Shown piece by piece: positions 2,156 through 26,999 of a DNA stretch of 27,543 nucleotides. This DNA comes from Hyphochytrium catenoides (taxonomy: Eukaryota; Sar; Hyphochytriomycetes; Hyphochytriales; Hyphochytriaceae). The position numbers and the translations under genes were made by a program. The DNA is taken from contig FLMG01001271.1 of assembly GCA_900088475.1 (NCBI GenBank), positions 1-27,543 of the forward strand, given 5' to 3'. Numbering within the stretch: the stretch's first letter is position 1; each line of letters starts with the position of its first letter. A model generated the notes under the pieces. That model saw nothing but the letters and a program-made list of their open reading frames with translations. It made no database searches and had not been told where the DNA came from.

Positions 2156-3910
2156 CTAGTCCACTTTGACCTTACGAGGATTAGGAATGTTGATGATGCT
2201 GGGGCCTGTCATACGAAGCACAAGCTCGGGCGAGCGCATGATTCGCACCAATGTCTCAAACAGCTTCACCTCATCACGGAGATGACCCACATAGGATTGT
2301 TCTCTCGCTATGTAGACTCCCTACACATGGAGAGCCATTTAGTACATCAGCCCTTAGAGCCACAGACAACACATGTAGAAATCCTCACCTCACACAAGTC
2401 CAGCAAAACGGTGGGGTCTGGCATCTCTTCATAGACAATAAATAGATACTTCTTCCGGAAGATGTTCCCAATAAAACCTCCGATCGTGAAGATAATCTGC
2501 AGAGCAGGCGTAGCAAGAGCCAAAATCAGCCACCCGACTAGTCAGAACAATTATGAAGTTACTTTGCTCACAAATATGTAGAGCGCCTTGTATCCATAGC
2601 CGCCTGCAGCCGTCGTAAGAGCCGTTGAGATTCCTGAAATCACATTGTCGGAGACCGTGATGATGCAAAGACCACGGTTGTCCGCCGATCCACAATCCAC
2701 TTTGGCTTGGGAGGAGTTCGTATCAAGCTGGGACGTGACGACCCAGAAAGTTTGGCCTGCTGTGCCAATGAGCTGCATAGTCAGCAGGTACTTGGCATAT
2801 CCTGGAGCCACAAATGCCGGGCCCTCTAGCGGGAGGCGGAGGACAGAGTCATAAATTTGACCAACTTGGAAGACTTCCGACTTAAACTCAGGTTGGTTTT
2901 GGCTCGCATTGATAGCAGACGCGATGGCCTTTTGGGTGGCCATATCTATGGCCCCGAAGAAGGTTTGAGAAATCTGTGGCAAGAGGTAGAAGAGGAAGGT
3001 TTCTGGGTCAGCTACTCTCCTTCTATCCGGTGATGGTTCAGTTGCCCCATGAAGGCGGCAAGTGGACACACTGAGGGGTACTACTTTGATAACTGCCACC
3101 TACCTCTGTGTTGCTGTTCGTGGGGTTGATGGCTGAGCGTGTGAAGGTGAACGTGACCAGCCAACCAAGGTCTAGCCCTTCCGCCAGACTCTTTACCAAG
3201 TAATCCAGCAACGGACGGCTGCAGAGATATTATTTGTCAGCTATGGACGTAAAAGAATGAGCGCAAAGATCAAATGTGGAGAAGGGCGTAAGACTTGGAA
3301 CCATCAAAAAGAAGTATAGACACTCTCAGACGCCTTGAAAATACAACGAACATTTCTTTGATAGTAGGTGAATCACAAACATATCCGGACCCACCTTGCA
3401 CCCCAGGCAGCCTCTGAGAAAGGTAGGAAGGCGATGGACTGAGCCACAGCGTCTACTGTGTCAGTGCGCGGCAAGCTCTTGACATCCTTAAGGTCAAACG
3501 CAGTGGTCATGAAAGGATAGGTGAGAGCTGCGCTGCCATTCCTGCCTAGTCCTATCTTCACCTCCGCACTGGTGACAGGGTTAGGGTCGTAGGATGGGTT
3601 CAGGTCGGAAAATAGGAGCAAGGGGAGGACCAAGAGAAGGACAAGGAAGAAAACTACGAGGCCTCCTTGTATAAACTTTGTGAGAAATGGCTGCTTCTTA
3701 TATCCTTTGAGAGCCTCATCTTCCTGCCTCTCCCTCATGTTGCACTTTTGAATGTAAAGACTTATGTAGATCTCCTCATGCAAGTTGAAAAGAGGGCGGG
3801 AAAGTGAAGTCTCCGCACAGACCCAGTTCAGCGTGCTGCTCAGCTCGAAAAAGAAAGGGATAGCCTGGCATATCTCCTGCCTCAACTTGGTCAACTCACC
3901 AAAGCCTCGA
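2156..3910 (-). other. Piezo exons 30-34: anchor, outer helix, extracellular cap, pore helix and C-terminus
   Basis: Exons 3395-3910, 3104-3218, 2572-2973, 2389-2496 and 2156-2320. Order seen: PFFFELSSTLNW anchor motif; an outer-helix run rich in Leu/Val (LVVFFLVLLLVLPLLLF); about 245 residues of cap domain, close to the family size; the pore helix around ALYIFIIFTIGGFIG; then FIVYEEMP and MRSPELVLRM just before the stop. By-eye alignment puts EE at mouse E2495/E2496 and the RSPE Pro-Glu at P2536/E2537, both known pore-constriction positions. The pore therefore looks complete. Confidence 0.93.
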
Positions 3911-6900
3911 CTGGAGCAACAAAAGATGGGTAAGAGTAAGCTCAGACCTCCCACAGCACGACACGAAGAAAGAGGATCAGTAATCACCCGTCACTATAAG
4001 GTTAGATTGGCAAAGCGGGACTGCGGAAAGAGAGACTTGACACCCAGTCAAAACACAGAGAGGTATGCAGGGTAGAGAAAGCAATGTTCTTCTTAGATCT
4101 CTGTGTACCTAGTGAGCAAACGACTATCTCCTGAAAAAACGGGATACCCATACTTTATCTGCAACGCTGACAGCCCCATGTAAGCAGCTTGGATGAGGTA
4201 GAACAGAGAGAGAGACGTCCTTTCCATTATCACCGTATTCACAGACGCTGGAAACCAGAAAAGGATAAGGAGATGCACCGCGAGGACGAAGGAATACTGC
4301 AGACAGAGCTTAATCCGCAATGACTGGTACAGCACCGCCACTCTAACAAACACATTGTGGTCAGTAGGAGAAATCGGACGAAGAAAGATAGACAATGTGC
4401 ACTCGATCAGAGTTTCACAATCAGTTTCATTCTCGCTGCCCGATTTTGCTTCCTCATGCAACATCCGCACTCCACCTGTTATTTCTCTCTAGGTCCTCGC
4501 TCATTTAGACCACAAAGACGACTAGACCCCACTATCTCACCTGTCGCCTATCATTAGCGCCACCTGCAGTATGCACAAGATCACCATGGATCCCGAGAAT
4601 TGAGAGGAGGACATACTGGAGGAGAGGCCATTCGTCTCTTTGCTGCCAATAGAGGAGAATAGAAAGACTATCCCAATAAGGGAGATACCCTGGACTATAA
4701 GGGTAGCAGAGTAGTAGCTCCGTCCTGGCTTTTGTCCATTCGCTGCATCCTGGATGTCGGAGTCCCACCGAGGTGGGACAGGCGGGATAATCCGGTTGAA
4801 ATAGGCAGAGAATGGCTTGGGAACCTTTGAGATGAAAGATAATGAGGTGGCCATCAGGGTCTACTAGTAGCTACTTCTGCCAGAATGGTCTTGAAGAGTC
4901 GAAGAAGAGCGCAAGTCCAAAGTAGATTGGCCAAAGTCAACAAAGTTCGTCACTTACAATTTTATCCACAGATTGCGGAAGTCCGTGAAGCTTCTTCCCT
5001 ACGCCTTGATCCACGTAGATCTATAAAATCTAGGCTTCAGTGTGACTTCTAACCAGCTTGTAGTATGAGATGGCAGTACCTGGCGGGTGTTATTGAGAGC
5101 TTGCATATTTCTCTTCTCCTCCTCATCGGTGATCACTTCCTTGGTTGACTCTTCTTTCTCAGTAACCTCACTAATTGTCTCTGCAGCTTTGCGAGCTGCC
5201 TCTTCCTCTGCTGCCTTCATGGCTGCCTTTCTGCTCTGCAGCTCCAAGGCGTGCGCGCTGTAGAACAGGACAGTCAGAATGACGAGACACAGGTGAACTT
5301 TTCTGTCTCCTGTGCCTAGAATGGTAGCACTTCGTCAGCTTTCTTCTTCAAACCTCAACATGTTTTAGCTCTCTACCCAGTGCCAAAGCCTGACCGACCC
5401 ACATCCTACTTACATATCAAGCATAACGTCTTGATCACTCAATATCGATTGGTTATCCTTTCCTTGTGAGCCACGAGTGAGCTGCTCAATGAGAAATGTC
5501 CGCCGCACAGAAGCGTCGGCAGTCTCCCAAAGACCCCGTACTCCCAGCTCGAAGCGGTGGTATACGAGGGAGAGGAAGAAGAGGAAGGTCCAAATTAAAC
5601 CTGAAGATGAGTTCCATTGAGTCCGTCAAATACTGATGACCAGAGAAGTACGGAACACTTTTGATTGACCAAGTGGGGCGTGAATAGCAGCAGAAGACAT
5701 AAGCACTGGACAAAGGGTGATCTAATGAAGAATCCAGCTGATGAGAGAGGACTTGGAGTCGTGGACAGAGCATATAGGAGATTGGCCTTTAAAGGCGTCA
5801 CTTCTCTTCGCGTCTCCCTACCTTCTGTTATTGAGGCTACGTTGTTAAGTGACCCGTCAAATTTATAGATTCCTAAGACCAGTAGGGGCTGAAACCTCTT
5901 TACATTGGTACTTTGCACAGTCAGAGATAGAGAGGGGCACCATGGCTGGATCGATGGGTAGAAGAACGCGGACCGGTCGATCTGGGCTGACTGGCAGAAA
6001 ATTGGGACTTGAAAAAGGTATTTCACAGATAGCGCGAAGATGGACTACATGGCAGACGAGCAACTAATTACTTAGACGCCTATCCATCAACCACATATCA
6101 AGCGTGTTTAGAATACGGCAGGAGAAGGAAGTCGCCCTTACCCATGCCAACAAAAACTTCCAGATCTTGACCTTAGGTCTGGGATTTTCGAAGCCAGCAT
6201 ACGCAAAAATAAGCATCACAGGAACGGTGCTGAGCAGATCTCCTTGCATAGCGAACGACAACGCTGCTGCAAAACAGCAGAGAAGCGATGACCAGCCACG
6301 TAGAATGTTTACTAGTATAGCAGGCAGCTCCAACCAAGGAAAAATGGTGGAAGAGTTCTCATCTGGCCTCTTACTCTCATCACGTAGGACTGGGTCCTGC
6401 TGACGCTGCAACGAGGGAGCAACAGTTGGAGTTGAGCATTGTTACAAGTCTGAGGAGATAAAGGTATGGGAAACGACGTTGAATAGAAGAAGAGCTAAAG
6501 GGGGAACCAGCAAAACCTCCTCCTTGGCAACAATAGGAAAGAAAGCAGCATACGAAGGAAACGACGACGGCTTTATGAGGCAGACAAGAAGAGAGGGAAC
6601 TGTTCAATAAGACTCACCCATAATGCTGCATAGTAAGGAAACCACCACGGCAGCTCATCATCTTCTTTGTCTTCGTCATCCATCATCCAGCTCTCAATGG
6701 AGCCAGCCTCACTACCCTGCTCTGACATTTCGTCGTTTTCTGTCGTCTCACCACCATTCTGTTTTCACGGGTGCAGATGCGAGAAAAAGTGAGAAGAGGA
6801 GCATAATATAGTCGCTATTCCATTGAATAGCTGTGAGGAGAGACGGCGGTACCGTGTGTTCTACTTAGACCTAAGACGTGAATCTCATCCAAGGCAGGGA

Positions 6901-9900
6901 GGGCTAAGGCGATGGTAAAGCCCAAGTCTCAGTACACAACCTACCGCTCTAATATGCTCTTCCAACCTCTCTTGGAGCGTTGCACCCACAGATTTATTTG
7001 GCGTGTTTTGCAGAAAAGAAGAAATCCATTTCTCCTCATCTTCTTCATCCGCTGGCTGGAATTCGTACAGGTCATAAGGGTGTCGACCTCTCCTCAGCTT
7101 CAGAACGAAGCGCTGCAGTTGTGGCCTCCCATCCTCCAGTTGCACACGTTCAAGAGGGCGCTCAAGGCTTATTACGTCCCCATGGTGGAAGGAAGTAGGC
7201 CAGTGCCTCTTCCGGCGGCTTGACCTGAGGAGTCAAAAGGTTGACGAAGTCAGCTTTTGCTCTACATGGCCTAGATTCCTCAGGCATAGAGATAGAGATC
7301 TCTCTTTTTGTCGCTGCTGTCTAGTTCAGACCGGTCGCTTATCCATAATGCCCAACTTTCCTCGCACCTGTGCTTCGCAGCAACCCTTTCGTTCTTATAG
7401 TAAGATAGACGCCTCCGATCAGCAACAACGTAGCGCAAAAGGCATCGTTTGCTCTCTTTCATAAAGAAAAAGTGCCATGGTCGTTTGTTTGTCTGACTCG
7501 GCAGAAACCGTCAGTTAGTGGAGTCGTGCATGGGAGTATTCGAGCAGATGTACGCAAGCAGCCCTTTTCGTCCGGTGTATCTTTCCCCACATCTCCTCCT
7601 GTTGAACACTTTCTTTCCACTTGAGATCGGCCGTCGCTGTCTGCTACTCCTAAGTTGGAGATGCCCAGTTGCTCATAGACCTCCAAAGGTAGCCTTTTTT
7701 GTATTACTCACCGCTTTCCTCGTAATTCGCATCCACCCAGCGGTGACATCAGTCCCAAAGTCGAGTGGCGCAGTCGTAATGGGTGGCGATGGAATAGAAA
7801 AGGGACCCTCTCCGTTTCTGTTGACAGCTGAGACCTTGAACTGGTATGAAGAGGCAGGATGTAGCCCATCAATCGTTAGCGCGGTAATGTGGCCTATAAG
7901 GTGAGACGTTAGTTTTCTCGCTGAGATTGACAAACGGTTGAAGTCTTTCTGCTCCCTCCAATCAGTGTACCTGGCACTTCAATCATATCGTCATAGTCAC
8001 CCAATAGAGTGAGTGAAGGAACCTTCTGCTGCACAATTCTGTAGGCTTTGATCCTTAGGCCGCCGTAGCTCTCCGCTGGCTCCCATCGTAGCTCCACAGA
8101 GTGCGCTGTAGCGTTTGATGCACGAGGATTCTTCGGAGCGAGAGGGGGTAGCGAGAGATTCAACCCGATAGCGACATCAAGAAGCTCCGACGTCACGTTC
8201 AGGGTCTACGACACAGCGCCATAAAGGACGGGAAGGCAGTAAAGAGACACAACGGTCAGTTATCCTCATTGGCAGTTAAGATATCTGCTCTTTATCAGAG
8301 AAGAACGGATTGAATTGATACTGAGCCATTCTTGACCTACCCTTGTGACAACTGTCTTGAGCTTGAGGATCATAGCCCCCTTCACCTTGTGCATACGCCA
8401 CCACCTCTCAAGCCTGTCCGTATATTCCACCTTCTCGCTCAATTCGAACCTCTCATTCCGCTCCTCCCGCAATCGGTCCAAGTAGTGACGCATGTATCCA
8501 TATTTCTGACTTCTATACAGTTCACTCTGTACTGAAGCAAGAGCAAATATGATAATTGAAGCCCACGGCAATTCAGTACTGCCACTCGAAGTCTGAGACT
8601 GAGAATAAGGAGAAGTGAATGCCGCCCCTGGATAGTCCACGGGATACTTCACCAATCCCAGCAGGTTGCCCGCTGAAAGACAGGCGCCACCCATGTTGGA
8701 GTCATTGGTCCCTAACGTAAACGCACCCGCAGGGAAGTGGAGACGGAGCGCCAATTAGGTTTAAGCGCAGGAGCGCCAAAGGTAACTCAGAGGTCCAATA
8801 AATGACCGAGGTGCATTAAGAAAGCTGGGAAAAACTTAAGGAACGATAGAGAAGTGGACCACGGTACGGGGGAGAGGAGACAAGAAGGAAGAGTCAGGAA
8901 GAGTAATAAGCTAAATGGACTCTCGATATGACTTACCTATCACACACTGTTGCTTCGCTGCTGAGATTTCGATCGCAGGAAACTGGTACACAATCATGGC
9001 AAACATCTGTGTCCAATTAACCGCACGCAAACTCGCAAACACCCTAGTTCCTCCTCTGGATAGGTACTCCGAGCAGCAGAAGAAGACCACGGAGACGGAG
9101 ACATACAGCAGCGAGAAGAGATTGGCTTGGCTGCAGCCTGCAGCAAACGCCACCACCAGAACAATGTTGATGAAGAGCGCGAAGCAAAAGAAGGAAATCC
9201 AATGGAACAAAGTACGATTGTTGCCGCAGGTATAATCGCCTGGATCTCCAGGGAAGAGTTTCTGGCAGATGGCTTGAATTGTGCGCAAACGCTAGCCCAG
9301 CAAAACAGTCAGTTAGCCCCAACGGCAGGAATTCAAACGGCCAGGATCTAGCAAGCTCCCAAGAGCCGTTATCTCTTGTTTATCGAACACCGCAATCTTC
9401 AGCGTACCTTTCTGGATCATTTGTCCCCCTACCTATCCCTGCTAACGGTCTCCCTCTGCTAGCGGTCAGTCCTACACCATCAGGTATTGCTCGCAACTGC
9501 TTACCTTCACAGCGGGCTCCATAAGCCCGAATTGATCCGCCTCTTGCATCATCGGAGCCAGTGCGAGGGCATCCAGGGTGACGCCATAATGCCTTGCAAT
9601 GCTCTCATGGGCCCTCAATTCTGCCCAATAGTACGGGAGGTATTAGCGAATATAAGCGTTATGTGGGAGAAACGATAATACGGTGTCGGTCCTTCTCCAT
9701 TAGGTTTCCAGCCATCTCTTCCTCGAGACAGGCGCGACTACTTCTCTACTAGTCCGTCACTACATCTGCTCCTGATCAAAATTGCTGTCCAACTCCCTGC
9801 GGACAGATCTCCCTTTCTCCCTTGAGCCATTACGTACCTAGCTCTTCATAGAGCTGACGCAGTTTCCAAGCTTTAGGGATCATGCCCACGACGAAGAAAA

Positions 9901-12900
9901 CAGCTGCATCAGATAGGAGTTGCCACGGTGAACCATACCCCAGGCCGCCAATGCCTGTTAGACCAAGGGAGACAAGGTACAGATAAGATTTTAGTGAAAT
10001 CAATGTCAGAGGAATTGAACATTCAGAATTCAAGTGAGGGAAGACGTATAGAGAAAAACAGCGAAAAGGCTGCCTTCGAAAACTCTTAACCTACCGAACC
10101 AATACTGCCAACTGTTAGACAGCACTCTCCAGGGCCAGTAGCTCTGTCTGTCGGCTCCCAAAAATGGGGGAAATCCAAGAAAGGACCCGTACTGGGCTAT
10201 CAAACTCAGAATAAGCACCAGCTCAAGCCACCACCATCCGCCACGCACGAGAACTTTTCTCGGAGTATATATCAGAAGGACGACAAGGAGCATGTAACAT
10301 AGAGAAAGGAAGGAGAGGTGTACAAAGGACGAGACGACCAGTCCCACCAGCGTTAAGATGGTGAGAGCCCGGATCATGATGCGGACGTACGCTAGCCGCC
10401 AACGCCAAAAGGATGGTTCGACGTCATAATAACTAAGACCTCGACCTTCCTCAGCGGAGTCTCTCCCTTTGCTTGTGGGAGTTGCTCCCTCTTCACCCCC
10501 ACGGCTTTGTCTGTCTTTGTAGCGATGGTCTTCCGCTTCATGAAAAACCGTTTCTCCAAACTCTACAGCTCTCCGATCCTTCAGAGGTATTGGGTCACTT
10601 CTTCCCTCGGATGCAATGCTGTCCCTTTGCGAGTCGTTCGCCCCAAAGGCACTCGTTCGAATACGAGTGCTTTCCCTGTCCGTACTTCCACTTATGCGTT
10701 CACTTAGGCGTTGAGAGGGTTCCTTACGTCGTTGATCTTCACTTTCTGTTAGGCTCCTTACCAAGGACTCTCGAAGCACTGTACGGAAGCCCTCGTCGGA
10801 AGTGGGCAATGGTCTCCACGATGAGCCTTTTGCCCCGACTACCTGAATGGAAAATTCCGACATTTGGCCAGAATAACGGGCCGTTCCCGTCCCCGACGCC
10901 CCAAGGTAAGATCCTTTGCTCCCTCTTCCCATATCCAATTCGGGGACTTCTCGGCGCGATGAGGCACTAGCGGCATCTGATTCTCCAGGCAGGCTTTCTA
11001 TCGCGCTGTCAGCAGCCATGGCGGAGTTCATCTCAGCTGCCCCTAAACAAGCGAGAAAGTTGCGCGAGATCAAGCAAGTAAAATAGACGACGGCCCATGA
11101 GGACGCTTAGTTAGCCAATCCCAGTAAAGAGTAGTCGGGATATTATACGTACAAAACATCTTCTGTTTCACGCTGAAGGTAAGGGCAGCCTCAAGGGCCT
11201 TCAAGTCTTCAGCCTCAAAGTCCCGTTGGTAGATCTGGGCCCTGGAGAGACAGCAGAGAGTAGTTGAGAGGAAAGCAGCAAATTGAAAGTAGTAGGCAAG
11301 CAGAAAGGAGGGGAACTATGCTCGAAGAGAGGAGGCTTTAAATAGCTAGAGGTTTGACAGTGCATAGACTGTGACGCTGGATCAAAGTGGGAGATGCTTT
11401 AAGTCACGCGGGACATGGCAGAGCAAAATATAAAGTATCCTACCATCTTTGGATGCTACAGCAGATGGTCACGAAGGTGTGATAGCGCAATACCCGCCAC
11501 AGGCCATCTCCATCCTCCTCAGCCCTGATGAAGCCCCACCATGAAGCAGAAGGACCAGCAGAGAGAAAAGAATTGCCAGGTGCGAAGAAAGACAGCTGGA
11601 AGCAATATAACGCAAGAGAGAGCAAAGAGGAGAGGAGAAAATAAAACCACCAAATGGCATCCCATCGCATTGTGGGGATGACTATGAAGGCGTAGAGCCC
11701 GTACACAGAGTTAGCTACTGAAATTTGGCTGACACAGGCAACCGCCGCCAGTGCTAAGGTCAACTTAGAAGAATGGAGAGATAGCATTCTTTTGCCAAGA
11801 TGGACGAGATAGAAGAACCCGAGGCGGATGCTGTCGAAGACCTTCTTTAGAAGGAGGTTTGACTCTTCTTCCACGGCATCCTGCAGGAAATGGAGGAAGC
11901 TCTATTAGTGCAAACACCCAGGAAGTGCCAAGTAAACAGGGAAAGCAAGGGCTACGGAAGACAGAGAGTATGCATTTCCGAGCGCATGGAAGCCCAGAAC
12001 GGGAGCCAAAGCTGTGTGAAGGAGAAAAAAAGAGTCTATTACCCTGGGAGGACATGATTGCTGCCCGTCGACGGTTTGTGGCAGTGTATGGGTACTTTGA
12101 AGAGAACGAATATTCTGCCCTTGTATAACCGATACTAGGACCACCTGCATTAGATGATGTGAGTATGCACCCTGCTATCCAGCTCTTGGTAGAAGACCAT
12201 GGGAAAAGAAGGAGGAAAGGGACGTGCATCATAGCAAGGTGACCTAGGGCTAGGGATTCAGACGGCAGGGGTGTCAATGAAGCAACTAGCAAGGGACAGG
12301 CAGCTTGAGGCGCAAAACCGTAATCATACACTTAGCAGCTCGAGATCCACTTACCGCGGTCGTAGGGAAAAGGCTGACAAAGAGTGAGCGTGTGGGGAAG
12401 ACTATCAACCCTATCTCGACCAGTGTTATCCAGCGGTTAAGTGGCTCCCATAGGTCGAGAAGAGCAGTGTTTATTGCAGGAAACTGGTAGATATATTGCA
12501 TACACAGGATCAGCACGTTGGTGAGAACGATGGCCCGCCAGACGTTAAGCTCCAGGGTATTGCATTTCTCGTAAAATCTGTCAATAGAGACTGGTTAGAC
12601 CAAAACATGTCAAGACGGGGATTGACAGGAGACATATGTACAGGAGTCAAAGCGGAAGGGAACACCGCCACCCTCAAGACCACGGTAGGAGGAGAGTGAC
12701 AACTCCACCACAAAGCACAGATTAGCCTCGCAGCCCCATAACGGCGCCTTGATATAAGGTGCACGAGTGCCTATGAGGTAGATCAGGAGGGGCTGGTCAT
12801 ACCATACCTTTTGACCCCTAGAAGATACACCCAAATAGCAAGGAAGCAGAAGAGGAGCTGGATGAGTCCCACTACTGTCACTGTCCGTCCTGGAATCATC

Positions 12901-15900
12901 GGATCCTCAGGACCTTGAGGCTGCTGGGTAGGACGCTGGTACCAGACCGCGACTGAATAAAAGACAGAGTAAGAAACCGGCCTTCCAATGAACGAGTAGC
13001 CGCGCCAGATTAAGTCTGATAGAGAAGAGAGATAGAACCACGGCGCGGGAACAAGGGCTTGTGTTTGGGGATTCTGCTGACGCTGCTTCTTGACGATGAT
13101 GATCTGCAGAAGCCGCTGCGCCTGGGCCTACATTTTGTTGAAGCAACGGCGCGGCGAGTGAGTGCAAAGCCATGAGAATACTTCTCGAAGACAGCGAGCC
13201 CGAGTCCTTCTGAGAGCCGAGGACGCTATTCACTCTCCATTGAACGTCCTTACCAGGATCAGCACTGCCACTTGAATCATGTACTCCGTACTCCAGAGTC
13301 GTGCCCAATGGGAGATGTTCTTGTCAAAACAGACCAGGCCCATTGTGGTAAGGGTTGTTTGCTCTTCTTCCGCTGTGTTCTCCGAGCAGACCAGATTCCA
13401 AATGAACACTAAGAGACAGGCAAGGGAGGAGTACCAGCAGAGAAGAGGCCATAGGAAGACGCGAAACTTGGGATATAGGAGCACAAAGGCAAGCATCACA
13501 ATGTAAGCTGTTTGTAGAACGCTGACACTGGCTGCGAGCACGAGTACGATCATGCACAGAAGGAAGAACAGGTCCGTGTTCCGCATTATCACGCTTTTCG
13601 CATCCTCAAACCATATGGAGAAGGAGGATGGCTGGACTCTATCACTCTGCTGCGATGAGAGCTGCATCGTACGCAAAAGAAGTTTAAGGAGGAGGTGGAA
13701 GAGAGCAGTAGTAAGTAAGTGGCAATAGGTCAGCTGAGATGGCATAATAAGATGATTGCTGCATTGAAGAGCCACCTTTCAGGAGATGGACATATCATAC
13801 AAGCGACAAAACGATGGTGCATTGTTGCCATCCACCAGATGTCGGTGATGCCCACGCCCGCCAGCATTCATCCCTTTCTTTAGTCTGTCTTCCTTTGCTG
13901 CCTGTCTCTTCTCTCCTCATTCTCTAACCTCTTCTGCCTTTTCGCTCTCTCGCTCTTTCTTCTCTTCTTCTTCCCTCGACTGCCTCTTCTCCCTCTCTCG
14001 TTCTCGCTCCTGGCTTCTTCACTAGGGGATTCGTGGCCAGCAGTCGTCACTCTTCATCGCCAGCCTGTTGCTGTTCTTCCTCCTCTTCTGTGACCATGAT
14101 TAATCATCCTCGCACCCAATCTCTTCTTTATCCTTTCGCTGTGCCTCTGTATTCTTTCGCTGCGCTGACCCACTAAATAAGGTACTTCCTACGGTGCGTG
14201 ACACAAGCACTTACCGGTGCGTATTTCGGCGGCGTTCCGGCGACGCCTACTTCAGCTCCGGGAGCGGCAGCCTCCGGCGCCATTGTTCTGGGCGCTTCTT
14301 CGCAGTCCTTTGACACGACAGTATTCCATACCTCAAGCATTGCATAGTAACGCCCGCTCGTGAAGCACAGGTATGCAAGCAGAAGATTAAGGAGGAGTTG
14401 CACCCCGAGCTCCAGAGCTCCGTACTCGAATACGGAAACCTCCGTCTTGTCAGCCCACTTTCGTACCGTCTCCTCTGCGACCCCCAGACTTCCCTCCGAC
14501 ATCGCAAGAAGGTTAAAGGCATATTGAATAGAGATAAAGAACCATCCGTAGGCGAAGGCCAGCAGGTAGAAGTAAGGAATCCGCAAGATTCCAACGATGT
14601 TGATTCCAATGAGGCCCCAAGATAATAGAGGAATCGAAAAAAAGGATGGATATGAGACTGCCCATAACATGAGAACGACGCCAATGAGGAACACTGTGAC
14701 TTTCTTTACAGCAAATCTTCCCTCCGGAAAAGGTACTGGCGGCAGTATGTCCTCATTCTCCATCCTCTTGGAACGCTCCAGGCCTCCGGACAGGACTGGA
14801 TGTGGATGATCAGTAGCATCCCCCACGTGCAGTCCGGGTTGATCTAGTAAGGACGACCGAGGAGCCAAGGAGAAGGGACCCATCTTGTCTCCTCCTAGAC
14901 TCTCCCCTTGCCTTCTCAAACGACCAGAGGGGGTGACGTTGTCCAAAGGGAGCGAGAGCTGAACCCCCAAGAATTTTCCGGAAGATTGTCGTGGGGTGTC
15001 AAATGATCGGAAGCGACCTCCTGGAGAAGGGCTGCCCACTGGAACCTTTGGAGTCGTAAGAGAGTAAGGAGGACAGGGTAAGCCACGAGACTGAGAAGAG
15101 TGGACAGGCAGGACGGTTAGATGAGGGCTCGGCCTAAAGAAGGTGCAAGAACACATATCAATGTAAGTTGGCCGGGATGGCATAAGGCGTCGCTGGCTTT
15201 AATCTTAGCTGATGAGAAGAGAAGAGAAACACTTCGTCTCGGCAAACCTAACAGCCAAATTCAACTAAGAAGGTACCTTCGGAGTAGGGAGAGACCCGTA
15301 CTCAGAAAACCTCAATTTAGATTGAGGAGATTGGGGCGACAGAGAGAGCAGTCGCCCTTCTCCTCCCTCCGGGTCCGAGGCTCGGGGAGTGAAGTTGTGA
15401 CGAGGTCCACGCCAGAGCACAATCGTCGACTCAAAGATGACCAACTGTCCAGCAAAAAGAAGGTACAGCCCCCAGCTCTCCGGAGCCTACATTATTAGAA
15501 CGGACATCAGCACATCAGCCTATTTAGAACAAAAAAGCGCTACACGGATATGCTCGAGCGAAGGTTCTTTTTCTGGAGAAGTGAACCAAAATGACAGCAG
15601 CTTTTCTGTTCTCTTGCTCATTACTAACGTACCGTGGGTAGAGATGCTAGGCCTAAAATGCCTCTCAGAGCTTCTACAGTTGTCCATCGAGTCACTGCTG
15701 GTATCTGGAAAAAGTAGCTGTCGGAACGTGAAGTCCAGTAGAAGTGGTAGACAGGTGGCATAAGCACTTAAGTCAGTTCGTTTTCAAATGTAAACTAGGC
15801 CAGAGAAAGCCCTTCCACTTACCATATCACAAATGCAGTAAGGTTGAGCCCAAACAGGAATAACAGGAACAAAGGAGAGAGCGGTATACTCTCCAAGAAG

Positions 15901-16925
15901 GACCCAAGAAGCCTGCAACGAAGCTGTAGGACTCTGGAGAGGAGCGCCAAGAATGCACCATAGTAGGTGAGGCAAAGGAGCCCTGGCTGCGCGACAGAAC
16001 ATAGAAGAAGAGAGAATAGAAGGGCACAGGATGTGCCCAGAATACGACTGTGACTGATATCTCCTGTCTCCCTGCTGACATAGTGATGCATCCTACATCG
16101 TCTCTTTCCTTCTGTTAGAGACCTTGCTGGATGCAGGGATGTGGTGTACAAAGGGGATGCGGCGAACGTAACATGACGGGCCTTGCGATAGTGCCAGCCC
16201 GTGAATAGAGAGGAGAAAGCAACAAGAAGATCTGGTAGTACTAGCCAGCTGAGCCCTCCCCATAGCCCTAGCTCCTCAGCGCTAAACCCAAGCCAGTTAA
16301 GACTTGAAGGTATCGAAGTCACTGCTTGCAGCTCGGCGTAACCCTAAGCAGCAGAAGAGAAGAGTGGGCCGAAAAGTAAGAGATTTGGAGAAAGATGAAG
16401 GGTTCATTGCTTGAGAAGGAAAGAGGGAGCATGTTAAGGGATATCCTTCTCTAAGATATCAGCCCATGTAATGCAGGACAGAGATCAGAGGAAAGCAGGG
16501 AAGGCCAATGAGGCAGAAGAGAGAACGAGGGAATTAAAGGACCTAGAGAAGTCAACGCGAAGGCCTTTCTTTTGTTCGTCACGTACCTGGAAGACGATGT
16601 GCAAGATGAGCAATGTAAAAGAGACCAGGAGCGTGAGCCACGCAAGAAATGGACGAAGATGGGGCCGTAAAGCATCGAGGACATACGCCCCAATATATAT
16701 GTACGAGAACCCAATAGGGCGCGTTGCTATGGCAAGCAGTAGAGAGAAAGGAAAGATGATGTTGACTGCTCTGCATAGAGTGGGGGAGAAGCAGGATGAC
16801 GAGGAGGATGGAGATGAGAGAGGCTCAGGCTCTCTCTCTCCTCCTTCTCGGCTGAGCCGATGGAAGGCTCCGGATGCCCAGGGATGGCCAACGGACGGCC
16901 TCCCCCTGCCGTCGTCCGTGACCAT
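2156..16925 (-). CDS. Piezo-type mechanosensitive cation channel with internal FN3 and PH domains
   Basis: Thirty-four exons join in consistent phase to 9345 coding bases (3114 residues plus TAG); animal PIEZO1 has about 2500 residues. Piezo proteins form trimeric plasma-membrane cation channels opened by membrane tension. Seen directly: repeated four-helix transmembrane blocks along residues ~50-1840; a beam-like charged helix (~1780-1839); an FN3 domain (~1863-1962); a PH domain (~1995-2120); an acidic linker; the last membrane block; a Lys/Glu coiled segment; and the pore module. The diagnostic motif PF(X2)E(X6)W reads PFFFELSSTLNW near residue 2698. The C-terminus has VYEEMP and RSPE, as in PIEZO1. 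Introns are mostly 55-250 bases. The start chosen is the ATG at 16925, which places about 50 hydrophilic residues before the first membrane helix; an upstream alternative exists. Exon edges are by eye, but every junction keeps frame. Identity is near certain; individual edges less so. Confidence 0.95.
4109..6758 (-). other. Piezo exons 22-29: acidic linker, last membrane block and coiled segment
   Basis: Modelled exons: 6618-6758, 6142-6405, 5822-6044, 5414-5600, 5080-5257, 4958-5020, 4541-4860, 4109-4342. Exon 22 is strongly acidic (MMDDEDKEDDELPWW). Exons 23-25 match PIEZO1 around AGFENPRPKVKIW, VKYLFQVPIF and YHRFELGVRGLWE. Exon 26 is a Lys/Glu/Ala-rich probable coiled coil (KAAMKAAEEEAARKAAE). 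Exons 28-29 hold the four helices before the anchor, including YMGLSALQIKYGYPVF, which corresponds to the conserved LSAYQIRCGYP of PIEZO1. Confidence 0.9.
6945..7643 (-). other. Piezo exons 19-21: pleckstrin homology (PH) domain
   Basis: Exons 7554-7643, 7368-7492 and 6945-7224 encode residues 1979-2143. The domain runs from EEMWGKIHRTKRAAC through RPWHFFF and RRRLSYYKNE to the closing helix DEEDEEKWISSFLQ, whose Trp (~2116) is the near-invariant PH tryptophan. The middle holds GDVISLERPLERVQLEDG. The basic Arg/Lys cluster in the first strands would suit phosphoinositide binding, but the usual K-X-R just after the strand-2 Trp is replaced by HFFF. Exons 19 and 20 are the least certain pieces; exon 21 is secure. 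The block starts and ends at phase 0. Confidence 0.85.
7712..8205 (-). other. Piezo exons 17-18: fibronectin type III domain
   Basis: Exons 7971-8205 and 7712-7893 encode residues 1840-1978. The FN3 pattern is clear: LAPKNPRASN, then a Trp in VELRWEP (~1880), then SYGGLRIKAYRI (Tyr ~1894), then LTIDGLHPASSYQFKVSAVN with Tyr ~1934, followed by RNGEGPFS. The domain is about 100 residues, the normal length, and is split by one phase-1 intron. The block as a whole starts and ends at phase 0. FN3 domains are beta-sandwich interaction modules. In Piezo topology this position is cytosolic, so a role in protein contacts inside the cell is inferred. Confidence 0.9.
8341..16925 (-). other. Piezo exons 1-16: N-terminal membrane blade and beam
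   Basis: Modelled exons in gene order: 16587-16925, 15823-16343, 15633-15717, 15277-15486, 14215-15090, 13254-13661, 12808-13127, 12355-12577, 12043-12144, 11444-11880, 11153-11241, 10095-11042, 9838-9954, 9505-9620, 8937-9291, 8341-8711. Recognisable matches to PIEZO1 along the way include SVAQPGLLCLTYYG (exon 2), CYFFQIPAV (exon 3), SWWGFIRAEEDG (exon 10) and LGFPPFLGADRQSYWPW (exon 12). Exons 5 and 12 also carry long Ser/Arg/Glu-rich stretches of roughly 100 and 200 residues, presumably cytosolic loops. Exon 16 ends in a charged helix containing YLDRLREERNERFELSE, which sits where PIEZO1 has its beam. The acceptor of exon 16 is ambiguous between 8711 and 8672; both keep frame. Confidence 0.85.
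13929..14009 (-). other. possible extra Piezo exon encoding a highly charged segment
   Basis: The intron between exons 5 and 6 (13662-14214) is 553 bases, the longest in the gene. Inside it the coding strand is almost pure purine. From a CAG acceptor to a GTTAGA donor there are exactly 27 codons, phase 0 at both ends, reading ERERERE, then KRQSREEEEKKERESEKAEE. Including it would leave the downstream frame unchanged and give 3141 residues. The acceptor lacks a good pyrimidine tract, so it may be an optional exon or just intron sequence. Confidence 0.35.
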
Positions 16926-18421
16926 CCTCCTTACAGGAAGATAGAACTGAAAGGCGCTAGTGCCTAGATGAAAAACAAAAAAAAGTGCGGGTCAGGCCCT
17001 TGCCGTAAGCCTTCTTCACACGCTATGCTGCAGGGCTTTTAACGTTTAACAAGCAGCCTATAAATACCTTCTTCCTGTGAAGATCCGGCGACACCTGCGT
17101 ATGATCTTCTTCATCATTGGCCGTGAGTGGTAGCACCCATGATTGAGCACTGCTGGTGACGCCCTAGAGCCTTCCTAAGGAGCGATACTACCCAGTACTA
17201 AGAGTAAGAGCGAGAGACCAGACAGACAGACAGACAGACAGAGAGAGAGAGAGAGGGAGACCTTATGAAGATCGCCAGACGGAGATGAGGGGCCTGGTGG
17301 ATAGTGCGATAAGAACAAGGTGTGCGCTCTGCTTCTCTGATCATACCAAGGCAATGAGCAGCAGCAGCAAGCAGCAGCAACGCGCCTCCCTGATCCTTGG
17401 AAGAGATAGGCAGATGGTGCTCCAAGACAGACTGAAGGAAAGACAGACAGAGGAGAATGACTGACGAGTGAGGGTTTCTTACTTTAGTATAAACAGTAGA
17501 AAAGTGAGTGTATGGAGAGGAAGAGACGGAGAGAGATACAGCTTCTGGGAGGGGATAAGTTGAAGGACGGCGGCAAGGAGCCAGAGCATGGCGTTTGGCC
17601 CTGCTCCCTCCTCTCCCTCCTTCCCACACTGGCCCAAAATCACCACACCCGCCCACAACACGCTCTGTGCGTAAGACCGCGTAATGCCTCTGTACGGGCC
17701 TCACGAATATCGTACGTTGTAGTATCCCACCTAACCCAATAGGGTTGAGTTCTTTTGTTATTTACCACTTTGTACTGTTTAACCCACCATGAAACCCATA
17801 ACGAAGTGAAGAACGCCGTCGATGGTAGAAAAGTTTGATTCCCACAGCAAAGTCACATCGAGAATGAGTCTTCAGCTGGACAGCACGGAGGCTTGAGAAA
17901 GGCTGTCAGTCTCACAGTCCGAGTACATTTTATTGGGCTTCCATCCTTCCAAGGATCAGAAGCTCAAGAGTTCCTTCAGAAGTTAAGAAGCTATCGCCAA
18001 GTGCGCAGTCACCCTTTGACGCTTCAATAAGGCGTAGAGAGCGAGTAGGTCAACGGGAGTGCATATCTAGAGGATGGGGGAATGCGGGCAGCCTCCTCCT
18101 ATAATTCCTGGCGCCGTTGTCATCGCAGGTCTTGAGTCCTGAAGGAAAGTGGTTAAGGTTGATGGCTAGCTCATGCAGAGCTGGCACGAAGGTGGTCATC
18201 ATGTGGTGTCGGCGTATCTCTGTCGCAGGAGGGAAGATAGAGGTATGGCAAGAAGAGAGACAAGAGAGTTTCGGAAGATAACAGAGAATAGCTATCACTA
18301 GAACTTCTCAAGCCCTCCAGTTTCAAGCCAATAAAGATTATAGCACTGGCTGTGTTAGACAAACTGGTTCCTTATCATAGCGCTAGTCATACTTAAAAGG
18401 CTGTTATTCCCTTTCATCTGT
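16926..18421. other. region upstream of Piezo and downstream of RPN2; no certain gene
   Basis: About 1.5 kb. A minus-strand chain of short pieces is in phase with Piezo: from an ATG at 17589-17587 to a GTAAGA donor, a Leu/Cys-rich piece ending in a GTATGA donor, a piece containing SAQSWVLPLTANDEED ending at a GTATTT donor, and a short piece ending at GTAAGG near 16930, which would join exon 1 internally at about 16751. These may be alternative 5' exons or 5' untranslated exons. From about 17750 to 18421 I see only the likely 3' untranslated region of RPN2. Confidence 0.45.
17219..17255. repeat. compound microsatellite (GACA)n-(GA)n
   Basis: Five and a half GACA units run directly into about seven GA units on the plus strand, so the Piezo strand reads CT-rich. 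It lies upstream of the Piezo start codon chosen here, possibly in a 5' intron, where it could serve as a pyrimidine tract. Confidence 0.9.
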
Positions 18422-21400
18422 CTACTTGAAGGCATTAGTTGCGTTTGGATCCCACTCGAAGGGCTCAGGAGCCGCAGCATCTTCCTCCTCCGCTGGCTTC
18501 TTGGCCCTCATCTCCACCAGCTCCTCAGGTTCTTCAGGCTTGCTATCAACTACCACGTTGATGCCGAAAGGTGTCCTCTGTGGATAATGATTAGGCAAGA
18601 GTTTGCTAAAGTAAGCATAAGGCACATATGACGTAAGAGCGACCTAGTGTTTAGAATGTCATGGACTTCTAAGGACCACATGATAAGAGCGACATGGGAA
18701 AGAAGGATCATACCACCCGGAGACTCACATCTCTAATGACTGGTTGATAGCGGCCACCCGAAGTGAAAGAGCATAGCTTCGACTGTGATAGAGTGACGCG
18801 GGATGGATTTTTCAGGGTGAAGGAGGTCGGCTCAGGCTCCTTCTTCTTCCTTTCTTTTTTCTCTGCGCTGGGCTGAAAAAGTTCGGACAGAGATGAGACT
18901 GGAGTTATGCCCGAGAGGTAAGCTGCAGAGGAGTTAGAGTAGTAGGCAACCGTACCTCTTCCTTCGCTTCCTTCTCCTCTGCTTTTGTCTCTCCTTCAAC
19001 CTCCATGCTCTCCTTCGTCTCCTTCTCAGGTGGAGCAACCCCAGCCTTGGCCTATCAGAGTGCTGACTAATCAGATATGGCCATAACAACACAACGACAG
19101 GAACTCAGCGGACAAGCACTAAGAGGCACATATCCCATCCCAAGAACTGAGCTTAGAAGCGAGAATGGGAAGAGAGAAATGGACGTCACCTGCTCTTCCG
19201 CCTTCTTATGCGCTTGTTTTGCCTTCGCTCTTGCAGTGGTTGAAAGAACAGCCTGAGTGACGACTGCCTTCTTCTCTTCCTTCTTTTCCTCCAAAGGTTT
19301 AGGGTAGGCAAAGAGAGATGGACGAGCACTGCAAGTGACAGTCACTGGGGATGGCATCTTGAGATCTTTGTTTACCGCAATCGTCATAGTTGGCTGGGGG
19401 GAACAGAAGCAGGAGGAGGCTATGACTGAGGACAATGCAGTAGGAGGATAGCAGAGGGAAGTCTAGAAGAAAGTTGAGATGTACAGGAAAAGTTAAGGTT
19501 CAGAGATGACATGCTCTATGGCAGACCTGACATCGTGGCAGTCAATGAGAGAAATAGCTAGGAGAGAAGAAAGTCCTTGTCAAGGATATGGCGGCATAGC
19601 GGAGGCCAGTGTTTAGTGTCTATCAGAACAAAACGAGAAGGGCAATTGCAACGAGTTGCCTCGACAGTAGCACAATGGGAAGAGATCAGAAAGATGCTAG
19701 GAAAGTAATCCCCTCTTTACCTGAAAAGCCAGCGCAATAAAGTGGTGCAGAGGGTACCAGAACCAGTACTGAGCCCAAAGAGCTAGCCCGACCACCGAGC
19801 TCATTTTGGTGAAGCCTGCCCGGGACTGCAGCGAAACGACTACGTTTCTGCCTCCTGCATCCACAAGCCCACAGGCGATGATAGCACCCATCTTGGTCAT
19901 TGTGCTTTGGTGCTTATCTGAGACCACCTACGATTGCAAGGCGAAGCAAAGTGTGAGGATTGTTGGAAGATCGGAGACAAACATGAAAACAGAAAGTCTG
20001 CAAGCCACCACCGAGCTGGGCACAAGAGACCAAAGGTGTGAAACGTACTATAATCATCGCAGACCATCTTGGTGACTAGTCCGCGTAATTGAAGAACAAT
20101 GAGAGATGGGAGTTCACCTCACCTTCAGAAACTTCTCCTTGAAGGTCTTGACCTTAGGATTTCTGGCCTCACTCTCCTGCATGATGACCATGGCAAGTGC
20201 CATCATGGCTCCCTGCCTAACGTAATCCACGGCGTCATCAAGCATCGGCTCCAACAGCGCAATGGCCTCAGGTCTGGCAGTCCCTGCACACGAAATAGCA
20301 ACGGCCATGCAAGCTCCATAGCGAACGTGCGGATTGAACGACTCTGCCAATAATGAGACAAGATTCGGGACCTGGTAGACAAGCGAAGAACGAGACGTCA
20401 GTTGCAAGCATAAGGATAGACGCCCACATGCGCCCTGATACGCAAAAAAAATAAATCTGAACAAAGCACTTAAACAGCACTCACAGGCAAAAAAAGAGAG
20501 CAACAGGGAAAATTCCGCACAACAAAGAGATAGACTGAGGAGACACAACCAGCTTTGAGTTGATGAGAGCATTTCACCTTCTTACCTGCTCTGAAGACCT
20601 GAACAGAACGAAGCCTAGACATGTGACGGCTGCCCTTCTGACATCATCGTTGACATCGCTCACTGCGACATGCAGAAGCCGCCGAATAGCGCTGTTACTG
20701 CTGGTTCCTACAAAGGCCAGGCCGATGGTATACATAGCTCCATAGCGGATAATAGGGTCCTTGTCTCTTGTCAGTTGCTCCACCAAAACGTCACTCTCCT
20801 CTTCTCGGCCATACATAATCAGGGCAATGCCAAGGGCGACTGCCCTGATGATCTTTTCGTGCTTTGTATCATGGGCATACGAAATGAGCTCGCTGATAGC
20901 TGTGCGAGACAGCTCGGTGCTCTGACCTTGCCCGAGAAGAAGAAGGCCAATTCCCAAGCCTGCCGCTTCACCTGTGGCAGATTGGCGATTGAGAGACTAA
21001 ATAGGCAGCAACACAGTGAAAGGCAGACAATAATCGTAGAGAGACACGAACACCGACCCTAACCTTTGAGAAGGCGAACTAGGCCAACAAGGTAGGAGAC
21101 CAACCAGCTAAGATAAGGTAAATGGATCAACTCACCGGCCACGGCGCTGTCTGTGTAGAGTGTATTTTTGAGATCTTCGTACAGCTCTTCGTTTGCTGTG
21201 GCCATTGCAGCCAAACCCAAACCCAGGCAGGCACCGTGTTGCACCACTTCCATCGTTCCAGCGTTACGAAGGGCATTTTGAAGGTAGGTGATCGTTGTTC
21301 CATGGCCTGTTTTAGAGCATACAAGATAGAGGAGTAACAGCCACTATGTAAGAATCACCCGCTCACTCAATAGAGTTGCCCCAAAGAACAGAAGTAAAGC

Positions 21401-23764
21401 ATGTTTAGGCGATGACAAGGGCCCAAAGAGTTGAGAGAAGAGATCAACTTCTTCTTCCATCCCACGCCTTTACCGCACACGGAGCACTTACCGGCTCCGC
21501 CGCTATTGGCATGAATAAGGCCGAGTGCATATAGGGCACCGCCTTCTGAGTAAGGGGAGGCGGAGATACCTCCCTGTGGCAGATAGGGCTGCAGAAGATT
21601 CATGCTCTCCTTCACATGACCCTTATGAATCACGCCTAACCCGCCTGTAGCTGTAAACTTTGCCCAATTGGTAGCCTTGCCCATCCATTCAAGGTTATCC
21701 CGGAGAAAAGAATCCACGGTAGTCCCAGCCTATGCAAATAAATAGGTAGAGGGTAGGGAAGAGAGAGCAAGGGAGTGAGAAACAGAGCTAAAGCTACAGA
21801 GAAGAAGGTTGTTTCTATTCCTCCTTTCTCACCTGCATGTAGCCATGTGCGACGACAGTGGCCCCATGAAGTACTGAGTTCCTATTCTCAACCGCCGTCT
21901 TAATGTTTTTTAGGATTAGAAGGTCGGTCTTATTTTCCCTGTACAGAAAATCCAGAACCAGCTCCCGTGTGTAGCTCCCTTCTAGAATCTGATGGAGGAC
22001 ATTTATCCGCTGGAAGTAGTCGGCAGAGGCGCCAGCAGGTGTAGAGCGCTCGTCCTTGGTCTCTTCGCCTGAGAACATAAAAGAGCCGTCACTCCTCTGG
22101 ACTCCGCAGACGTTTGACTGGACAATGAGACACGGACGATTAAAGTATTGACGTGTGCTAATACCTTCTGAAGCTGCAGTGGCGGCAGGAAGAGCGCTGG
22201 CAACGCTCAAAAGGAACTTCTGGTTCTCGTTTTCGCAAATGTCGAACGCAACCTACAAAGATGGCAAACCCAGAGCAGGCGTAAGCACCAAGCACCACCA
22301 AGCAGCCAACTCACAATGGAAGGTGCCATTTGGCCAACAGCGGAGGAGCAATGAGCATTATCTCACCTGGTAGGCTAGAAGCGCGCTATTAAGGTCTCCT
22401 TGGACCAGCTTTTCTAAATTCTCAGCGATGCCCTTTGAATCGTCCAAAAATTGCAGGCATAGGCAGAGCCCGCTGTAGTCAACCTCAGGCATACTTCTGT
22501 GAAGCTGGAATGCGCAGCACGGAAGGTAATGGGTGTAAGCGATGGCTAACAGAGAGGTAAAAGGCATCATAAGCAGACTACACATAAAATCCCATGATCA
22601 ACGGTTTGAGACAAAGAGCATCGCTTACCCTCACGCAGATCTCGATGACTTTGAGTCTAAAGTCCCTGTGGTCCACCACCGACTGGCACATTTGGAGGCA
22701 CGAACGAAGCATTGAGGCCTTATCCTTGGACTTATTGATTGCCTCCTCCACCTGCGAATGACAGAAGCCGAAATTCGATGAGTCCGTGGAGACGACAGAA
22801 TAATGCCAGAGCATGTCAGGCCACACCTATCTCTCTATATGTATATAGTCAAGACAGGTGACAAGCAGCTTAGAGGCTTGGTGATAGAACTTATGGCGGG
22901 CAGCAGTCTTCATTCAAGAGAATAACGTAGAGAGGAAGGAGAGAGTTGCAGCTCCACCTTGTCCAGCCTTCGGCTTTCGATGGCAACTCCTAGGGCTTGC
23001 GTGTAGGCTCCGTCGGCGTAACATCTTTCAAACATCCGTTCAACAACAGCTTCCATTCTTTTGTCAATGGTGACAGGCTCGTTGGGTTCCAAGGCTTGCT
23101 TGGCCCGGAGGCTGATATACTCATCAATGCACTTTGCTGAGCGTTCGAGATCCAAGAGAGCGCTTTTAAATAAAACGGCATCAAGCAGGAGGATCTAGTG
23201 TCTTACCAATCATCTTTTCAACATACTCAGACTTGCTGCTGATATCAAAGAACTTGCCAGCACTCAGCGCTAGGCGGAGTGCGTCCCCATACTCCTCCAA
23301 ATGGAAATAGCACTGCCAAGGTGGCTGCTGTTAGTGCTTTCCACATATATAGAGAGAAAGGTTTGACACTGTGCTCAGGATAGTACGTTCACCTTAGAGA
23401 CGACTGCGGCTGCAAGCTCTCGTTCTGGAAACGTGTCATCCTCAGCCAAACTTTCAATCAGAGGTAAGCTATCCGCAATCTCTGCCCAAAACTGGTCGAC
23501 GACTTTGTAGAGATACTGCAACGCGTGTGCCTATAAAGAACAACGTGGCACTTACATCTCTATTCGCTCATAAACGTCAAGTCGTACTAACCTTTAGTTT
23601 GTAGTCTTCTTCATCCAGTAGCGCCAGCACACCAGAAGCTGCTCGCAACAATCGAAAAAGTAAGTACATTCACTGTCCCATTCTATTGCAAAGACGGATG
23701 GTTTAATGAGCTTACCGCTGGTGATTGGGGCAGAATGAGGAGTAGAGATTGCTGTTGCCGCCAT
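18422..23764 (-). CDS. RPN2: 26S proteasome regulatory subunit RPN2 (PSMD1)
   Basis: RPN2 is a large scaffold of the base of the 19S regulatory particle. Eighteen exons join to 984 residues plus TAG, the normal family length: 23716-23764, 23592-23638, 23393-23530, 23207-23312, 22958-23136, 22629-22751, 22367-22504, 22165-22252, 21833-22068, 21492-21729, 21136-21306, 20586-20971, 20123-20371, 19721-19927, 19190-19393, 18956-19051, 18729-18872, 18422-18577. The N-terminal helical part has [12 protein letters not shown] and CLQFLDD. From about residue 420 a series of proteasome/cyclosome repeats is plain: [98 protein letters not shown] is the family's signature stretch. A Lys/Glu-rich insert precedes the tail, which holds the RPN13-docking PEPFEW. 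Introns are 61-327 bases, phases 0 and 1 only. The start ATG gives [10 protein letters not shown], like plant RPN2. Confidence 0.97.
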
Positions 23765-25506: not shown

Positions 25507-26999
25507 ATGGATCGAAGTCACCCTATGCATGGTGCATCGGGAGATGTTGGCTCCGGCCATAATCCGTTTTCCCTTCCCCATATCGTGGATCAGCCTTACT
25601 TAAATCAAAGCCTGGCCGGCGTAGATGGTGCTCCGTTTGGAGCTCCATCTCATGATATCATGCCAGTTCGCAGAGGCCGAGGAAGGCCTAGAAAATATCC
25701 GGTGGGCGAGAAGCCGCCCAAAAAGGCAAAGAAAGAGAAACCTCCAGTGCCTATCGTTACTCCCCTGATACCTCCAGAAGGCTATGTAGCCCCGGGAAAC
25801 TCTAGTAAATCGGTGCACCAAAAGGCTGCATTGATGAGGCTGTTCGAACAGGATCAGACTCCAAAGAAGGATGCTATCAGGGATGTCGTGATGAAAACTG
25901 GGCTTGATTACAGGGAGTGCCTCAAATGGTTTGTAGGTCAGCGTGGAGCAGCCAAAAAGAAAGGGAAGGGCAATGAAGAGGAAGGAACCACCGGCGGAGA
26001 AACCGCTGCAGGTTCGAGCCAGAAAGTAGAGGAGAAAGAATCTCCTAAGCCCATGGAAGAGGCGGAGCTCAGCAGCACACGGCCCGCGGCTCGCCCCCGC
26101 CCAGACGTAACAAACCTTACCAAATCTCAAACCAAGGCCGCAAGGGAGTGGGCCTGCCAATATTCTTTGGTTGACGATTTGGCTGAGAAAGAATATATGA
26201 TTCACCAGCTGGTGGACCAGCTTAATGTTAAGAGGCGGAAAGAGCTCAGGAATCTGCTCGTCAAAGAACCCTTACGTCTGGAAATTCCGAAAAATTTTAA
26301 AGTTAGGAAGAGTGCAGCGGACCCCTCTTTGACCCGTGATGCGCTGATTGAGCGTGCCGATCACTGCTGGAGTTATCTGAAGCAACGGTTCGGAGCACAG
26401 GAGAAGGAACCGGGCGAGGAGAACTGTCTGGATGAGAGTAAGCTGCCGTCGTGTCTCTCTCGCATACATTCTTCTCACCCATGTTTCTGCTGTTGCTATT
26501 GTTCACTTTGCTCACTTCTTGCTTCTCGGAGTAGGAACGGGTTGCTCTATTTATCGCACACCCTAATCTTTCCACTATTAGCCCCTGATGGGCTTCTGCT
26601 GTGACTAGTCTAACTTGTCCTACATACGCAGATGGCAATTTGTTGCTTGATGCTGCCATGGTGGCCGGGCTAGAGGCGATGTTTTCCCGGCATCGCGACT
26701 ATTTTATGGCCCTTGTGTACCGCTTCAACATCAAAGGTGTGATAGCTAACCTTGAACTGAAACCATAGGGACGGATAGCAATGGATATTTGTATATTCTT
26801 CCGTCTTTTGCCTGACGTCTTCATGGCTTCCTCTTTCGATTCTGTAGACATGTTCCGCCGGCAGATTGTTAAGGAGGCTCGTTCAGAGTTTGAAGGCAAG
26901 AAGAAAGTTGGGACAAAGAGGACCGCTAAGGACTCCAAGTCGCCTTCGGCAGCAAAGAAAGTAAAGAGACAGGATTCGGGGTCTATCGGATATGTCTGA
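25507..26999 (+). CDS. AT-hook and homeodomain-like nuclear protein
   Basis: Three exons, 25507-26437, 26632-26736 and 26848-26999, join in frame to 395 residues plus TGA. An AT-hook core (RRGRGRPRK, residues 55-63), which binds the minor groove of AT-rich DNA, is followed by a Lys-rich stretch. Residues about 95-152 resemble a homeodomain: ALMRLFEQDQTPKKDA, then GLDYRECLKWFVGQR with the WF pair at 141-142 and Arg 146, but Gly where the invariant Asn51 should be. An acidic linker and a conserved-looking helical region (~207-305) follow. The third exon is basic (KKKVGTKRTAKDSK, AAKKVKRQD) and may hold a nuclear localisation signal. An in-frame TGA at 25453-25455 supports the chosen start. A chromatin or transcription role is inferred; I do not recognise the full-length family. 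Confidence 0.8.

Follow-up and report, generated by a model that had tools for sequence, protein, structure and literature searches.

A Piezo channel gene with a predicted fibronectin type III and PH-like module in the loop before its last transmembrane units

Results

The sequence analysed here, referred to as the window, comprises positions 1-27543 of contig FLMG01001271.1 from a draft genome of 42.5 Mb in 1105 contigs. Its minus strand carries a gene which, judged by domain content and motifs, is a true Piezo channel gene, and which encodes a fibronectin type III (FN3) domain, a PH-like domain and a strongly acidic linker between a predicted beam helix and the next transmembrane unit. Searches of the genome for the RuBisCO large subunit and for light-harvesting genes gave no match, and the host is probably a heterotrophic protist, likely a stramenopile.

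The Pfam search of the window located the Piezo cap family PF12166 on the minus strand at 2201-2320 and 2569-2946. The complete gene model (Table 1) was spliced by hand from three minus-strand frames, with the open frame, splice signals and the features of animal Piezo as guides; its uncertain parts are the 5′ start and exons eC and eI. The model contains a single stop, located at its end, the exon phases are consistent, and GT or AG is present at all 64 internal junction ends. The exon borders were picked such that the frame continued, and its openness is therefore in part a product of construction. Support independent of the choice of borders was provided by the database protein P0122, which aligns with window residues 1756-3154 in one piece through the insert (30.3% over 1475 columns). 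A TC/TG simple repeat was observed at window 17219-17254 on the minus strand, upstream of the modelled Piezo coding start.

The Pfam scan of the protein covered the spliced C-terminal 1443 residues as well as the first 990 residues of the model. The C-terminal part contains, in this order, fn3, PH, THU_Piezo1, THU9_anchor and the cap, and the score of the latter (139.7 bits at a curated cut-off of 26.9) identifies the protein as a Piezo channel. The PFEW motif, called absolutely conserved in Piezo in the excerpted text of a 2013 paper (PMC3681921), was found as PFFFELSSTLNW at model residue 2727. The initial annotation had described an otherwise complete Piezo, and this is likely: the blade parts are homologous by alignment to the database proteins P0124 and P0125, and a simple hydropathy scan counted 31 hydrophobic segments, compared to 29-34 in four other Piezos and within the approximately 30-40 transmembrane helices expected of such a channel, whereas the first 990 residues matched no Pfam family.

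The insert consists of four exons (eR to eU, 8205-6945, minus strand) instead of the five counted initially, and comprises 822 bases, i.e. 274 residues (model residues 1836-2109), with phase 0 at both outer borders. As proposed before, the FN3 domain precedes the PH-like domain in a frame that continues without internal stop and with matching phases on both sides, and the insert lies between a beam-like helix and the following transmembrane block, the first unit of which matches THU_Piezo1. The beam is named by position only, because the profile of this stretch matched no Piezo chain in the PDB, its matches being acetylcholine-receptor chains with E values of 0.49 or worse.

Table 1. Features of the Piezo gene in the window. 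Strand names of the PH-like domain are given by analogy.
Feature	Position in window	Strand	Basis
Piezo gene model, 33 exons, 3154 residues, 5′ end not fixed	2156..16925	-	Open frame, splice signals, Pfam, alignment to P0122
Exon eQ: last transmembrane segment before the loop and predicted beam helix, residues 1712-1835, ends in phase 0	8341..8711	-	Aligns with relatives
Exon eR: conserved ELLDVAxGL-type linker and first half of FN3	7971..8205	-	fn3 match, alignment
Exon eS: second half of FN3 (to about 7784) and first PH-like strand (from about 7741)	7712..7893	-	Pfam
Exon eT: PH-like domain, beta1-beta2 loop to beta3	7368..7492	-	Pfam
Exon eU: remaining PH-like domain with basic beta3-beta4 loop and C-terminal helix, ends in phase 0	6945..7224	-	Pfam
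Exon eV: acidic linker, net charge -14, to next transmembrane unit	6618..6758	-	Charge count
Exons eW-eX: main part of the THU_Piezo1 unit after the loop	5822..6405	-	Pfam, 65.1 bits
Exons e2-e4: THU9 and anchor with PFFFELSSTLNW motif	3395..4860	-	Pfam, 160.8 bits
Exons e5-e8: remaining cap, last transmembrane segment, C-terminal domain and stop	2156..3218	-	Cap, 139.7 bits; match starts in e4

The fn3 family PF00041 scored 51.8 bits in the spliced C-terminal piece (cut-off 25; model residues 1858-1950) and 58.4 bits when the FN3 segment was scanned alone, and fn3 was matched in all five Piezo FN3 rows that were scanned. The PH family PF00169 scored 17.7 bits in the long window piece and 22.6-22.8 bits for the segment alone, below the curated cut-off of 25.1. 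Thus, from the Pfam families named in the initial annotation for the spliced protein, PF12166 and PF00041 exceeded their cut-offs and PF00169 did not. The window domain was accepted as PH-like because PF00169 was matched in all seven aligned PH rows (best E 4.6e-9), namely the window, two paralogs of the same genome on contigs C864 and C31, and the database proteins P0122-P0125, and because the four database proteins passed the cut-off with 27.3-31.3 bits; the Pfam scan matched PH in each of the three same-genome rows. By these profile matches, the second domain is PH-like in the window and a PH domain in the relatives passing the cut-off. When the seven-row PH profile was compared with the PDB, 12 chains reached an E value of 5; eight are PH proteins by their listed name, one is not, and three, beta-spectrin, centaurin-delta 1 and KIAA0053, we take to be PH proteins as well. 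Beta-spectrin was the best match (E 0.0041, positions 38-132).

A search of the same genome with three Piezo families revealed the further Piezo pieces on C864 and C31, the Piezo match on C31 being single and weak (28.5 bits, in a frame crossing introns). Both contigs encode FN3 followed by a PH-like domain between a beam-like helix and the next unit, and fn3 and PH were matched in each. The three copies are collinear across beam, FN3 and PH, with identities of 38% over 403 positions (window and C864), 33% over 327 positions (window and C31) and 38% over 328 positions (C864 and C31). Their intron positions differ, which suggests that the three Piezo copies stem from old duplications. The insert of C864 likewise has a length divisible by three and phase 0 at its borders, and is followed by an acidic exon, while C31 reaches its contig end and its linker is not assembled.

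The searches of protein databases relied on shared short exact words, so that the coverage of plants, diatoms, brown algae and amoebae was insufficient. The first one returned 149 matches, mostly bee and ant isoforms; among the 120 matches listed, precomputed Pfam assignments contained fn3 in one and PH in none. From this search P0008 was obtained, a Piezo with fn3 in the same loop (25.7 bits). The second search returned two matches, the query itself and P0121 (fn3 37.2 bits). In the profile search, 8000 candidates were scored and ten matched, four with the FN3 and PH Piezo layout (P0122-P0125, both domains over the cut-offs in all four) and six FN3 proteins without a listed Piezo domain. Of the Piezo proteins retrieved in this way, P0122-P0125 carry both domains, P0008 and P0121 FN3 only. 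P0123 is labelled Peronospora matthiolae and P0124 PHYBOEH_004769, Phytophthora boehmeriae; the UniRef name of such relatives is 'Fibronectin type-III domain-containing protein'.

P0122-P0125 share with the window protein the succession of beam-like helix, FN3, PH and acidic linker, with a loop identity of 33-34% to the window, and P0122, P0123 and P0124 (the last with a partial THU match) likewise run on into THU_Piezo1, THU9_anchor and the cap. P0125 has no Piezo Pfam match and aligns with the window at 734-1175 and 1369-2215. In the alignment of the seven rows, collinearity extends over beam, FN3 and PH and, in the rows that are long enough, over the linker and THU as well. Unlike the genes of P0122-P0125, the window gene is intron-rich and has at least two paralogs, and its pore motif ends in W, whereas that of P0122-P0124 ends in Y. 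At the PFEW site, PFLFEMRALLDY stands in P0122 (994), P0123 (1024) and P0124 (1729); P0008, P0121 and P0021 gave no match to a relaxed PFEW pattern. P0008 and P0121 carry FN3 at the same place, between the beam-like helix and THU_Piezo1, but have no PH match and a shorter loop: 191 and 200 residues, compared to 372 and 387 residues in proteins with PH (372 in the window).

An unrooted tree was calculated from 17 chosen rows including ciliate-like (our label) and animal Piezos, the FN3-bearing rows being cut after the insert. It groups the window with the oomycete-type FN3 and PH rows (96/95) and joins the FN3 and PH rows with the FN3-only pair (98/94), against the ciliate-like and animal rows. 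The tree would fit a single acquisition of the FN3 insert and a subsequent gain or loss of PH.

The net charge of the PH rows is positive throughout (+13, +7, +1, +12, +8, +12 and +8), that of their beta3-beta4 loop is +3 to +7, and that of the linker is -10 to -14 in all six rows tested. Moreover, the motif [DN]E..A..HR is present in 7/7 PH rows. A signature of phosphoinositide-binding PH domains is K-x(n)-[K/R]-x-R, with [K/R]-x-R-aromatic at beta2. At the aligned beta2 position, [K/R]-x-R-aromatic was found in none of the seven rows, with Leu in first place. The looser pattern K-x(7-13)-[K/R]-x-R-hydrophobic, allowed anywhere in the PH domain, occurs in five rows at no shared place. In the window it follows directly on beta2, and in C864 it directly precedes beta2 and recurs in the beta3-beta4 loop, where C31, P0122 and P0124 also have it. 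It was not found in P0123 and P0125.

Two further regions of the window gave domain matches. A second minus-strand gene lies upstream of the Piezo gene at 18400-23500 (rough limits); one of its exons matches HEAT and proteasome/cyclosome repeats, another matches RPN2_N weakly (16.3 bits, cut-off 27; two exons scanned), and the gene likely encodes the 26S proteasome subunit RPN2. On the plus strand, an uninterrupted frame of 381 residues at 25459-26601 has a homeodomain match of 22.2 bits, just under the cut-off of 22.9.

Discussion

The FN3 domain, the PH-like domain and the strongly acidic linker almost certainly form a conserved, presumably folded module in the loop, as the module is common to three paralogs in this genome, to two oomycete-labelled proteins and to two further relatives (P0122 and P0125). 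The loop was placed where animal PIEZO has its latch and clasp because the unit following it matches THU_Piezo1 and, weakly, PIEZO2: residues 442-529 of P0122, i.e. this unit, align with PIEZO2 1971-2058 at 7.5 bits, and at 14.4 bits with a second PIEZO2 chain. FN3-PH most likely sits at the position of latch and clasp.

How such a module would act is a question on which we can be only tentative. In the mechanism that we favour, which is possible rather than probable, three copies of the module per trimer would lie under the membrane near the base of the pore. The PH-like domain would touch the inner leaflet via the basic edge at beta3-beta4 and via the beta1-beta2 loop, which is basic and in part hydrophobic, more by general electrostatics than by a specific phosphoinositide pocket, and the acidic linker would compete for the basic PH face. 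Flattening of the blades might shift the balance between PH on the membrane and PH on the linker and thereby move the beam end and the lateral gate, with FN3 serving as a rigid spacer that fixes the geometry. Electrostatic contact is favoured because the PH domain is basic, the linker is acidic and the lipid signature is absent at beta2, and because of the data on the lateral plug of PIEZO2, in which deletion of the intrinsically disordered region IDR3 raises conductance, a misplaced plug being the reason given by the authors (PMC8924262, in the part used here). Taken as one proposal, identity and mechanism come out just on the probable side of even.

Several observations weigh against this proposal. 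The window's own PH score stays below the Pfam cut-off, and the PDB matches of the PH profile are weak and, beyond beta-spectrin, cover short stretches, mostly the last 25-30 positions (C-terminal helix). In C31 the beta1-beta2 loop has a charge of only +2 and the whole PH domain of +1, and the loose K-x-R matches in 5/7 rows leave room for a specific lipid site. In addition, the tree has long branches, with that of the window among them, and the comparison of the beam profile with the PDB provided no residue-by-residue match of beam, latch or lateral plug to animal PIEZO.

Just as good as the favoured mechanism, and equally far from certain, is a protein-binding scaffold in which FN3-PH anchors the channel, either on the cytoskeleton or on partners that serve its trafficking or clustering. 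The best 60 of 181 matches of the FN3 profile include titin, integrin beta-4, receptor phosphatases and contactins, of which the former two have intracellular and the latter two extracellular FN3 domains. FN3-only relatives exist, and FN3 would therefore be useful without PH; on the other hand, no partner is known and none is pointed to by the sequence. The initial annotation regarded the PH domain as a specific phosphoinositide sensor that couples gating to membrane lipid state, which we consider unlikely. The premise that PIEZO activity depends on phosphoinositides agrees with the portion drawn on of a review, for animal Piezo1/2 (PMC12940486), the PH domain is basic in all rows, the loose signature lies just before beta2 in C864, and another review, in the consulted part, counts beta-spectrin among the PH domains whose inositide site is non-canonical and states that such PH motifs predict lipid binding poorly (PMC4704004). 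Against the sensor stand the absence of [K/R]-x-R-aromatic at the aligned beta2 position in every row and the loose matches, which share no place and are lacking in P0123 and P0125, so that a specific sensor is not supported by any conserved signature.

Less likely again is that the module only fills the place of the disordered animal PIEZO loop, as a passive spacer keeping the lateral plug in position. The region between latch and clasp in PIEZO2 is a positioning element according to the excerpt of PMC8924262, and the loop length varies with the presence of PH, but a mere spacer would hardly explain conserved motifs of surface type such as the HR motif in 7/7 rows and the acidic linker in 6/6 rows tested. 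An alternatively spliced cassette, which would provide the channel with and without FN3-PH, is improbable; the phase 0 borders and the 822 bases of the four exons mean that skipping stays in frame, and the C864 insert has the same property, whereas window and C864 have their first borders seven residues apart. Finally, the possibility that the model joins Piezo with a separate gene or an assembly artefact, for which the draft state of the assembly, the hand-chosen borders and a model built from genome sequence alone could be cited, is nearly refuted, and a separate transcript is very unlikely, because the two paralogs and four database relatives share the same order, on three contigs of the genome in all, and the P0122 alignment crosses both borders of the insert.

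No Piezo with FN3 or PH was described in the literature searched, outside which subscription papers and preprints lie, and of which the parts used included PMC4820453, PMC13413365, PMC8924262, PMC4704004, PMC12940486, PMC7935092 and PMC3681921; the excerpt of PMC4820453 gives one or three piezo homologs in P. infestans and S. diclina and there mentions neither fibronectin nor PH. The earlier claim that this architecture had not been described thus stands for the literature searched, but such proteins are already database entries: the novelty apparently lies in the description and not in the sequence, and the architecture would be a conserved version of Piezo. It points to an ability of the most variable Piezo region to acquire entire domains and to retain them through long periods of evolution. 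We would put forward, with similar reserve as for the mechanism itself, that a large protist clade, comprising at least oomycetes and this lineage, gates Piezo by a folded clutch of FN3 rod, basic PH and acidic competitor, which would read anionic-lipid charge and tension together at the lateral gate, with FN3 having come first and PH having been added or lost later.

Comparison with animal PIEZO

The PF..E......W motif is common to the window protein and to one insect and one nematode Piezo, and vertebrate Piezos also carry it. Animal PIEZO1 and PIEZO2 (PDB 5z10 and 6kg7) resemble the window protein in the order of THU, anchor, cap and C-terminal domain. The loop is different: in PIEZO2 it comprises lateral plug, latch, IDR3, clasp and IDR2, where the beam-to-latch linker is the lateral plug, IDR3 joins latch and clasp, and IDR2 joins the clasp and THU8 (PMC8924262, in the part used here), whereas in the window it comprises FN3-PH. 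In animal PIEZO, the cytosolic loops that position the lateral gate are for the most part disordered and therefore difficult to investigate; the same loop here carries conserved, presumably folded and deletable domains in FN3-only and FN3-PH versions, so that its role in gating could be tested directly by removal and swapping.
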